43,449 nucleotides of DNA from Hyphomicrobiales bacterium. Its GTDB lineage: Bacteria; Pseudomonadota; Alphaproteobacteria; Rhizobiales; Rhizobiaceae. A program made the position numbers and the translations under genes. The stretch spans positions 1 through 43,449 of the forward strand of contig JAALLE010000027.1 of NCBI GenBank assembly GCA_011087605.1, read 5' to 3'. Positions 15,136 through 17,450 of the stretch are shown piece by piece. The first letter of the stretch is position 1; every line of letters starts with the position of its first letter. The notes below the pieces were generated by a model that ran no database searches, was not told the DNA's origin, and saw only the letters and a list, made by a program, of their open reading frames with translations.

Positions 15136-15351
15136 CGGTTCATGATTTCCATGTTGAAACGGCCAAAACAGCCGTTGGTGGACCTCATCCTAGGAGACAT
15201 TTTGGGCTTCTGCCAATGGTGGGAGGCTGTGAATACAGGAAAGAAAAGGGTTTTGCACCGTTTCATAGTCGGAGTACAAGATAGGTTAGGGGTAAAAGGA
15301 ATCGCTCACTAGCGGTCGCAAACGGATAAACACACCCCAGGAGAGAGAAAA

Positions 15352-17391
15352 ATGTCTGACACTTCACTGGGAACGCCGGAGCAACTCCGCGACCCGAACT
15401 ACATGCCACCATTGGGGCAAGCGGTTCCATTGGGCTTACAACACGTGCTGGCGATGTTCGCCAGTAACGTAACACCAGCCATTATTATTTGTGGTGCTGC
15501 TGGAATCGGTTTTGGCTCCGATCAGGGTGCGTTGGGTTTTCCTGACATGCGCTATATGGTCCAGATGTCGATGCTGTTTGCCGGTATCGCCACGTTGATC
15601 CAAACCATCGGGCTTGGACCTGCGGGGGCAAAATTGCCCATCGTTCAGGGTACAAGTTTTGCCTTTTTGCCGGTCATGATTCCGGCGGTTGCAGGGCTCG
15701 GAACAGGTGGGCTGGGAGGGCTCATGGCTGGCGTGATCATCGGTGGTATCTTCCACATGATCCTGGGTACCTTCATTAAGAAAATTCGATTTGCCTTGCC
15801 TCCGTTGGTTACCGGGCTGATCGTTTTGATGATTGGTTTGGCGCTGGTCAAAGTCGGCATTCAATATGCCGCTGGTGGCGTGCCGTTAATGGGTAAACCA
15901 GCATTTGGCTCACTGGCCATGTGGTTTCCGGCATTAATCGTGATCATTGTTACCTTGCTGGTTAAGTTTTTCGGCAAGGGCATTACGGCGGTTGCGGCGG
16001 TGCTGGTCGGTATCATTGCCGGTTATATTGTCGCGCTGATCATGGGTCAGGTGAATTTTGGTGGAGTTGGTGGAGCGGCGTTCTTTGAACTGCCCAATCC
16101 TTTCCGCTGGGGTTTCAGCCTTAACTGGGCGATTATCATCGGCATGTGCCTGATGGCCTTTATTTCAGCCATTGAAACCGTCGGCGACGTATCCGGTATC
16201 ACCAAGGGTGGTGCTGGTCGCGAAGCCACCGATGAAGAAATCCAGGGTGCGACCTATGCTGACGGTCTGGGTACCGCGATTGCCGGTATTTTTGGCGGTC
16301 TGCCAAATACGTCGTTTTCGCAAAATGTTGGTTTGATTTCCATGACTGGCGTCATGAGCCGACACGTCGTGTCGATCGGTGCATGTTTCCTGATCATCGG
16401 CGGCCTCATTCCAAAGGTCGGTGCGATTATCAATACTGTGCCAATCAACGTGCTTGGTGGTGGTGTGATCGTCATGTTCGGCATGGTTTGTTCGGCTGGT
16501 GTCAACATGCTGTCTGATGTGAACTGGAACCGTCGCAACATGGTGATATTCGCCACTGCTCTGTCCGTCGGACTGGGCTTGCAACTGGTGCCGGACGCGC
16601 TTCAGCACATGCCAGGTACTTTGAAAATTCTTCTGACATCTGGTCTGCTGCCTGCTGCGGCTATCGCAATCGTCTTGAACCTGTTGTTGCCGGAAGATCT
16701 TGACGGTGATGACGGCAATAGCGGTGCTCATGAAACTCAGATCAGCGGTCTGGGCGATTCTGGTTCTGCCTCCGGTGGCGCCGGTTCAGGAACAAGTTCT
16801 GCATCTACCGCGGCGTCCTTGGCGAGTTCCGGTACCGTATCGGCACGCTCAGGTTCAACGGCATCAGACGTCGGTTCGGCAGCTGGATCGGGAGGTGCAG
16901 GTAGTTCGTCCCCTGCAGAAAAAAAGTCTGGTGGCGCTTCTTCGGAAGCAAACCGGCCTTCGCCAGCTAAAAAATCGGCCAGCAAAAGCTCGGCAGCGAA
17001 ATCCGCTGCTAAGCCTGCTGCCAAAAAGCCTGCTGCCAAAAAGGCTGCGGCAAAATCGGCCAGTAAACCTGCTGCCAAAAGCACTGCGGCCAAAGCCGCT
17101 TCCAAGTCTGGCGGTAAAGCAGGCAAAGGTGGCGTCAAGGACGATATCGCCCTGATCGATGGAGTCGGTCCGGTTTTGAGCAAAAAGTTGACCAAACTCG
17201 GCTATGGCACGCTTTCGAGCATTGCCAATGCAAGCATCGCGGATCTGACGAAAGCCGCGGATGTGGTCAGCTATGCTGAAAAGAGCGGGAAATATGCCAA
17301 AGACTGGCAGAAACAGGCGAAGGATCTGTTGGCTGGAAAACCGGCTCGGGCCAAGTCTGACCGGGCTCGCCAAAAGGCTGCCAAGTCCTGA
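15352..17391 (+). CDS. NCS2 nucleobase (xanthine/uracil) permease fused to a Lys/Ala-rich linker and a helix-hairpin-helix domain
   Basis: Residues 1 to about 447 form a full NCS2 permease: GLQHVLAMFASNVTPAII at the start, the conserved Glu in AIETVGDVSGI, and the signature FSQNVGLISMTGVMSR. Such carriers import uracil, xanthine or urate with protons. After the last helix comes an atypical tail of about 230 residues. Residues 448-550 are Ser/Gly/Ala-rich, 550-596 are histone H1-like Ala/Lys repeats, and 597-665 form a helix-hairpin-helix unit (DDIALIDGVGPVLSKKLTKLG) ending KDWQKQAKDLLAG. That last unit resembles the module at the C-terminus of NuoE and ribosomal protein L21 in Rhizobiales. 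Start ATG 15352 has AGGAGA seven bases upstream, and a terminator follows the stop, so the fusion is a single intact frame. Whether the tail binds nucleic acid is inference. Confidence 0.85.
   Translation: MSDTSLGTPEQLRDPNYMPPLGQAVPLGLQHVLAMFASNVTPAIIICGAAGIGFGSDQGALGFPDMRYMVQMSMLFAGIATLIQTIGLGPAGAKLPIVQGTSFAFLPVMIPAVAGLGTGGLGGLMAGVIIGGIFHMILGTFIKKIRFALPPLVTGLIVLMIGLALVKVGIQYAAGGVPLMGKPAFGSLAMWFPALIVIIVTLLVKFFGKGITAVAAVLVGIIAGYIVALIMGQVNFGGVGGAAFFELPNPFRWGFSLNWAIIIGMCLMAFISAIETVGDVSGITKGGAGREATDEEIQGATYADGLGTAIAGIFGGLPNTSFSQNVGLISMTGVMSRHVVSIGACFLIIGGLIPKVGAIINTVPINVLGGGVIVMFGMVCSAGVNMLSDVNWNRRNMVIFATALSVGLGLQLVPDALQHMPGTLKILLTSGLLPAAAIAIVLNLLLPEDLDGDDGNSGAHETQISGLGDSGSASGGAGSGTSSASTAASLASSGTVSARSGSTASDVGSAAGSGGAGSSSPAEKKSGGASSEANRPSPAKKSASKSSAAKSAAKPAAKKPAAKKAAAKSASKPAAKSTAAKAASKSGGKAGKGGVKDDIALIDGVGPVLSKKLTKLGYGTLSSIANASIADLTKAADVVSYAEKSGKYAKDWQKQAKDLLAGKPARAKSDRARQKAAKS
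17014..17082 (+). repeat. Short direct repeats in the permease linker
   Basis: CCTGCTGCCAAAAAG occurs as a perfect tandem pair at 17014-17043, and a third near-copy (CCTGCTGCCAAAAG) begins at 17068. They encode the PAAKK units of the linker. Such repeats expand and contract easily by slippage, so the linker length may vary between strains. Confidence 0.75.
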
Positions 17392-17416: not shown

Positions 17417-17450
17417 GGCCCGTCGGGATTATTCTCGGCGGGCCTTTTTT
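17417..17450 (+). terminator. Rho-independent terminator after the permease gene
   Basis: GGCCCGTCGGG and CTCGGCGGGCC form an 11-pair stem (with G-T pairs) around ATTATT, followed by six T. It lies 26 bases after the permease stop and before the convergent erpA stop at 17479. Confidence 0.88.

Follow-up and report, generated by a model that had tools for sequence, protein, structure and literature searches.

The locus described here raises the question of how a helix-hairpin-helix (HhH) module came to stand at the end of a nucleobase permease, and what it might do there. In the window (i.e., the whole stretch of 43,449 nucleotides analyzed, contig JAALLE010000027.1 from a Hyphomicrobiales bacterium), positions 15352-17391 form a single unbroken reading frame of 679 codons, and the domains that an earlier note, made from the letters alone, had read in this one frame (an NCS2 permease, a Ser/Gly/Ala and Ala/Lys linker and an HhH unit) were confirmed (Table 1). 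The permease part matched PF00860 over residues 22-414 (E = 8e-82; 275.4 bits, cut-off 27) and TIGR00801 (316.3 bits, above the cut-off of 291.8), while TIGR03173 (pbuX) aligned over 1-407 of 407 with 411.9 bits, just under its cut-off of 414.15. It also contains QNVGLISMTG, which we take to be the NAT-type motif. Based on these matches the substrate class is probably "xanthine-type", which is meant as a type and as nothing narrower. A ribosome binding site before the gene and a terminator after it had also been proposed, and both were found; the terminator-like stem (17417-17444) has 12 pairs and begins 25 bases past the stop codon, and terminator-type sites across the window numbered 7 as compared to 3.3 expected from shuffles, with 5-7 pairs in each of the remaining six stems.

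Table 1. Features of the tailed permease gene and its immediate neighbors, in positions of the window
Feature	Position	Strand	Basis
xthA-like gene, PF03372	14341..15135	-	Pfam
Ribosome binding site AGGAGAG	15339..15345	+	6 bases 5' of ATG, read directly
NCS2 permease domain, residues 1-448	15352..16695	+	PF00860, TIGR00801/TIGR03173; border from selection analysis
Ser/Gly/Ala-rich leash part, residues 449-540	16696..16971	+	sequence
Ala/Lys-rich basic leash part, residues 541-596	16972..17139	+	sequence, charge counts
HhH module, residues 597-665	17140..17346	+	PF14520, NCBIfam, A1 profile, AlphaFold2, Foldseek
Basic C-terminal end, residues 666-679	17347..17388	+	resembles the C-terminal ends of L204-L206 (L21 tails)
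Intrinsic-terminator-like stem and T run	17417..17450	+	terminator scan
Fe-S cluster biosynthesis-type gene, PF01521	17479..18003	-	Pfam

The start of the leash resembles a native short permease C-terminus, in that the motif ETQISGL also ends an untailed orthologue (L052, C-terminus ETQISGLKGFSD); a close form of ETQ..GLG is retained ahead of the leash in 6 of the 8 tailed proteins described below. At the other end, residues 662-679 read GKPARAKSDRARQKAAKS and close with the basic C-terminal end of the product. The isolated tail of 85 amino acids matched PF14520 (HHH_5) with 29.3 bits (cut-off 27), as compared to 25.6 bits when the whole protein was searched. As the earlier note had supposed, the tail is akin to modules on NuoE and L21: without its Ala/Lys stretch, the isolated tail matched the C-terminal part of the NCBIfam model of L21 at E = 8.6e-7, and the isolated tail matched those of NuoE, the phasin PhaH and S2 at 2.5e-5, 0.001 and 0.0055, respectively. 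Since the match persisted once the Ala/Lys stretch had been removed, low complexity was rejected as the cause of the resemblance. The module is presumably that of COG3743. It also fits a common NuoE/L21/S2 module profile with GxGP and W..QA; in the profile used here (A1, built from 14 aligned tails of five hosts), the invariant positions are D, GxGP, L and W..QA. As A1 was built with NCS2 tails among its rows, the NCBIfam matches represent the independent evidence for a shared module.

An AlphaFold2 model of the tail from a two-row alignment (pLDDT 73.4, pTM 0.64) has five helices; the full-length model was unusable (pLDDT 35.9). A Foldseek search with this two-sequence model gave no match below E = 0.001 (best 0.23), the closest whole-length match being the AR2 domain of NusA in complex with SuhB (6ib8_C, TMt 0.77, rmsd 1.7, E = 0.96), with RadA domains at TMq 0.59 and rmsd 1.5. 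The nearest PDB sequences were RadA/Rad51 recombinases (best E = 0.04). The module thus resembles the N-terminal HhH domain of RadA/Rad51 and NusA AR2 in fold (with weak E-values), and RadA/Rad51 weakly in sequence as well, but these domains are parts of recombinases and a transcription factor and are not leashed behind a membrane protein. Within the module the first hairpin (GVGP) is intact, and the F.GRI stretch of NuoE, formate-dehydrogenase-like and some L21 tails is, by eye, degenerate in NCS2 tails.

The tail also matched residues 160-224 of 8yy9_O, i.e., protein-O of the RC-LH1 complex of Dinoroseobacter shibae (E = 0.6). Like the tailed permease, protein-O combines a membrane part, a long flexible loop and a C-terminal module, but its host is a small photosynthetic subunit rather than a transporter (PMC12079452). 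In the available part of that 2025 paper, the C-terminal domain of protein-O is reported to recur on NuoE and on other proteins, its function is called obscure, and the protein-O gene is placed between those of NuoE and NuoF; this part makes no mention of nucleobase permease, L21, S2 or ABC ATPase hosts. A second likeness is the PhaC2 of Halomonas sp. O-1, which in the available part of PMC8686332 carries an extended C-terminus with a domain of similar description (COG3743, "predicted 5-prime DNA nuclease, H3TH domain"), although on a gammaproteobacterial PHA synthase and not on a permease; such matches were taken there as a sign of DNA binding, and nucleoid anchoring was speculated for Cobetia PhaC2. 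The available part of PMC4777378 reports a higher salt tolerance of DNaseI through either of two (HhH)2 domains, one from ComEA and one from a Thioalkalivibrio DNase, with DNA affinity as the most likely cause. A literature search, both for the fusion to a permease and for the modules on L21 and NuoE, returned nothing relevant, within a coverage that leaves out most subscription journals. Overall, the permease is a newly found host of a known but unexplained multi-host module.

We searched 15 genomes of the genus with the full-length protein. The permease-tail fusion was found in 8 of these (G000, which is the genome of the window, G002, G003, G005, G009, G010, G012 and G013), each time as a single open frame of 643-795 codons from stop to stop. 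A frameshift or a false fusion of two genes is ruled out by the intact frame in these 8 genomes. Three genomes (G001, G006 and G008) have an untailed permease only, and the full-length search found no match in G004, G007, G011 and G014; in G011 the start of a permease adjoins xthA and is cut by a contig end. The genome of G014, which belongs to the same genus, measures 0.9 Mb at 98% completeness, about a quarter of the size of most others, and searches of it for the module, the permease and xthA gave no match.

The PF03372 gene, which we take to be xthA, adjoins the permease in all 8 tailed loci. The Fe-S cluster gene (the true start of which is probably inside the ORF in Table 1) was seen adjoining 6 of the 8, its place being masked by another ORF in G010 and taken by other genes in G012, and argS-like and dgt-like genes, the latter presumably dgt, are close to 7 of the 8. 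Every complete permease found adjoining xthA in the genus (8/8) is tailed. The four untailed copies in the genus stand elsewhere: those of G001, G008 and G013 are close to genes that we take to belong to purine catabolism, and that of G006 has another location. In G001, G006 and G008, xthA directly adjoins the Fe-S gene with no permease in between, so the permease gene is dispensable in the genus.

Two permease genes occur together in G013, a tailed copy at the xthA locus and an untailed copy at the purine locus (L039 7268-9634 and L038 7578-9026). They are 100% identical over 1413 bp, and the identity stops within a few codons of the border between permease and leash, which points to a recent conversion or duplication that ended near this border. 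As an identical core exists with and without the tail in one genome, transport as such probably does not require the tail; the suggestion of the earlier note that nucleobase uptake could be coupled to a cytoplasmic partner finds no support here.

Among 151 genomes from 109 genera of the family, 35 (that of the window included) have a close orthologue of the permease. We read 29 of the 34 others; the remaining five came without a locus, with open frames of 349-520. None of the 29 orthologues read is tailed (0/29). Seventeen of them share the locus marked by xthA or Fe-S/dgt, another 6 are beside genes read as purine catabolism and 6 have neither in the flank; one (L065) has a stop inside the frame. 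As no family orthologue read is tailed and 17 are syntenic, the tail was gained within this genus, on a vertically inherited permease gene. Paralogy is part of the story behind the difference between tailed and untailed permeases, but it is not the whole answer, since these 17 untailed orthologues sit at the very locus of the tailed ones. The idea of a conserved fusion therefore holds for 8 of 15 genomes in one genus and does not extend to the family orthologues read. Both the recurrence of the fusion in other genomes and the HhH homology of the tail, on which the earlier note had let its proposal depend, were found. The closest named permease locus came from an uncultured Rhodobacteraceae MAG (80% identical), and with the 109 genera of the family sample this suggests that the family of the window is probably Rhodobacteraceae. 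Of the 7 loci returned by a scan of genome contigs, 5 are permeases, one (L030) is an L21 tail and one (L031) is a low-complexity match in Streptomyces; a motif scan of the permease loci showed a tail in none, L028 being cut by a contig end and the C-terminus of L029 lying outside the reading. Viral contigs gave no relative.

The module itself is far more widespread than the fusion. With A1 we found 91 modules in 81 reading frames from 14 of the 15 genus genomes, G014 being the sole genome without one. Counted by frame, the hosts are NuoE (14), S2 (13), L21 (13), NCS2 (8), small membrane proteins with two modules (10) or with one (1), a formate-dehydrogenase-like cytochrome b (3) and two kinds of ABC ATPase. 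One of these is amino-acid-type and has the module at the N-terminus (8); the other is peptide-type with two domains (10), to which a fragment at a contig end in G000 probably belongs as well. Pfam searches on nine host examples gave cytochrome b561 in L080 and L127, ABC ATPase in L111 and L125, oligo_HPY in L111, S2 in L115, L21 in L106 and the NuoE-type ferredoxin in L088; for hosts beyond the Pfam-confirmed examples the assignment came from a motif, from where the module sits or from the tree, and the names FdhI, AapP-like amino-acid ABC ATPase, LivG, PntA and "small membrane protein" are readings of the sequence. A module whose function was called obscure in 2025 thus sits on nine host kinds in one genus, and the tail is no peculiarity of this transporter, as the same module occurs on many unrelated hosts and this copy is closest to L21 tails.

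At least one module was found in 90 of 101 genomes in a family sample (that of the window included), in 10 of 115 in a class sample (9 of 114 without the genome of the window) and in 32 of 150 in a phylum sample, only four of the latter outside the class. By the family count, the module is no trait peculiar to Rhizobiales. The 40 family loci that we read add two further apparent kinds of host, LivG-type ABC ATPases (4) and a PntA-like transhydrogenase (1); in these other genera the module ends the PntA-like subunit at L213 1440-2993 (G048) and the LivG-like proteins at L207, L208, L211 and L214. On the ABC ATPases with an N-terminal module, present in 8 of 15 genus genomes (L125, L143, L099, L150, L151, L137, L135 and L147), the module precedes a basic stretch; Pfam was run on L125 only, and L135 and L147 were assigned by module position and tree. 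The genome of the window also contains an orphan module cut by a contig end (L132 42-248, at the start of G000:C92), which groups with the tail of a G003 peptide ABC ATPase (100/94 in the 92-module tree described below).

The L21 tails of NCBIfam PRK12278 type share with the permease tail an Ala/Lys leash followed by an HhH module, and three of them (L204-L206) also share its AGKPPRAK-type basic end and are its nearest relatives; unlike the permease module, however, they belong to the ribosome and their core modules are mostly negative. When four NCS2 tails representing both sequence types were tested, the nearest non-NCS2 modules included L204-L206, with pairwise scores of 162-198, 139-162, 151-167 and 164-173, as compared to at most 124 for any host except L21 and NCS2. 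In a tree of 92 of the 151 modules (NuoE, ABC, S2 and two-module proteins thinned), all 8 NCS2 tails fell into one group (support 95/92) that also holds 4 L21 tails and a single long-branch row. A second tree of 74 modules was thinned further, trimmed of the basic C-terminal end and freed of the modules from seven loci with long branches; here the 8 NCS2 tails stayed together with 3 L21 tails (100/98) and L165 moved elsewhere. Few columns underlie either tree, and in neither had the bootstraps become stable. A single clade of NCS2 tails cost 3.7 log-likelihood units (AU P = 0.249) and was thus not rejected, so that the tail may have been taken once or twice; a clade of the NCS2 tails with L165 and L204-L206 cost 10.6 (P = 0.171). 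The type of L21 tail that groups with the NCS2 tails is absent among the 13 found in the genus. We infer that the permease tail derives from a tail of the ribosomal L21 kind, the direction from L21 to permease following from the family permeases, which have no tail. On the 92-module tree, hosts are intermixed (21 label changes as compared to a minimum of 10, one label being a mixed "other"). There are signs that the module moves between hosts, and such movement would include the passage from the ribosomal-protein set to a transporter. Separately, the tail of the G012 S2 protein (L107) groups with the L21 tails L114, L096 and L203 (94/73, 92-module tree); tails may have been exchanged between ribosomal protein genes.

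Such intermixing, together with the identical G013 cores, is what would be expected if recombination had simply placed a copy of an L21-type tail on the permease gene, where it is merely tolerated. Nei-Gojobori estimates for 8 pairs of tailed genes bear on this. Omega of the permease was 0.022-0.160 (8/8 pairs), that of the module 0.011, 0.016, 0.020, 0.031, 0.068 and 0.121 (6 of 8 pairs computable, two saturated) and that of the leash 0.147-0.255 (5 pairs computable; leash pN 0.13-0.46 over all 8); single omegas are rough, as most dS values exceed 1. Of the 6 computable pairs, 5 gave a lower omega for the module than for the permease and one, G002-G005, a higher one (0.121 as compared to 0.108); the least saturated pair, G000-G003, showed the majority pattern (module 0.011, leash 0.191, permease 0.022). 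The module is under purifying selection. With the frame intact in 8/8 genomes and all 8 complete permeases on the xthA side tailed, we regard mere tolerance of a shuffled domain as quite improbable.

The leash, on the other hand, seems to be kept more for its composition than for its sequence. It is 100-230 codons long across the 8 tailed genes and is predicted from its composition to be disordered. The net charge of its last 100 residues is positive in 8/8 (+4 to +30), strongly so in 7 of the 8 genomes and weakly in G005, where it is merely +4 over 100 residues and the module stretch has -2. A strongly basic leash on a membrane protein could also bind anionic membrane lipid or set stability and turnover, with the module as a folded cap that protects the C-terminus; this would leave the same module on ribosomal proteins and the conservation of its hairpin across hosts unexplained, and we consider it very improbable. 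In the NCS2 tails the core module carries little charge (median of +1 over n = 8, with a range from -5 to +3). Counting the first module only in two-module proteins and dropping five duplicate loci, core modules are negative in 36 of 38 cases for S2 and L21 and in 17 of 102 for the other hosts (orthologues among these are not independent, so that P-values for this contrast overstate it). S2 has an acidic leash in 15/15, and an acidic module as well; basic leashes recur on NCS2, the formate-dehydrogenase-like cytochrome b and both ABC hosts of the genus.

From the known topology of NCS2 proteins, the C-terminal tail would lie on the cytoplasmic side, and hairpins of this kind bind the DNA backbone elsewhere. 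We propose, with about an even chance of being right, that the tail is a leashed docking tag that keeps the permease near nucleic acid, either nucleoid DNA or ribosome and mRNA. An NCS2 permease of the xanthine type, passed on by vertical descent at the xthA/Fe-S/dgt/argS locus, has acquired a tail, predicted to be cytoplasmic, that consists of a basic low-complexity leash of 100-230 amino acids, an HhH docking module of about 65 amino acids and a basic end, the module being drawn from a family-wide stock spread over many hosts, in a copy of the L21-tail kind. The permease would function normally in the membrane while the module extends into the cytoplasm and binds its predicted partner, with the hGhGP hairpin and the basic leash making the contact to nucleic acid, and permease molecules would thereby cluster near that partner; the cytoplasmic placement of the tail, the tethering and the partner are all predicted from this topology and the likenesses above. 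Nucleic acid is favored as partner because polyanions are the expected contacts of such a basic leash and end, and because this type of hairpin binds DNA elsewhere. The weak charge of the core and the degenerate second hairpin in NCS2 tails count against a DNA binder, and a single nucleic-acid partner for all hosts would be unsuited, as the S2 module and leash are acidic. The low charge of the G005 tail, the dispensability of the gene in the genus and the high Foldseek E-values from a two-sequence model likewise count against the proposal.

The negative cores of S2 and L21, the acidic leashes of S2 and the nearly neutral NCS2 core favor a protein partner or host-specific partners. The module might accordingly bind one conserved cytoplasmic protein, with the basic leash mainly as a spacer, a reading that we hold to be a tentative but real possibility. 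NusA AR2, the closest whole-length fold match, is an HhH-type domain that binds protein and was matched in its complex with SuhB, although at E = 0.96. Moreover, the module sits on ribosomal proteins, among them S2 with its acidic leash, and GxGP and W..QA are retained although the charge of the leash varies by host. The recurrence of basic leashes on the hosts listed above stands against this reading. Between the leashed docking tag for nucleic acid and a protein-binding one, the multi-host pattern narrows the question to the binding target of leashed modules. The permease is a good experimental handle for this, because tailed and untailed relatives exist, even in one genome with an identical core.

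A broader version, which we consider rather unlikely, is that the modules act as a cell-wide address tag, in which ribosomal and inner-membrane leashed HhH modules meet each other or one hub and thus link translation to the membrane. Ribosomes with S2 and L21 modules would then face complex I, the formate-dehydrogenase-like cytochrome b, importers (purine, peptide and amino-acid) and small membrane anchors; the mostly acidic ribosomal copies and the mostly neutral-to-basic membrane copies would in part suit a heterotypic contact, and the permease would have been enrolled by borrowing an L21-type tail. An obligate pairing of ribosomal and membrane modules is weakened by the 9 other class genomes with a module, 6 of which have one kind only (at E = 1e-5): G228 and G254 have the L21 module only, and G175, G199, G243 and G275 have non-ribosomal modules only.
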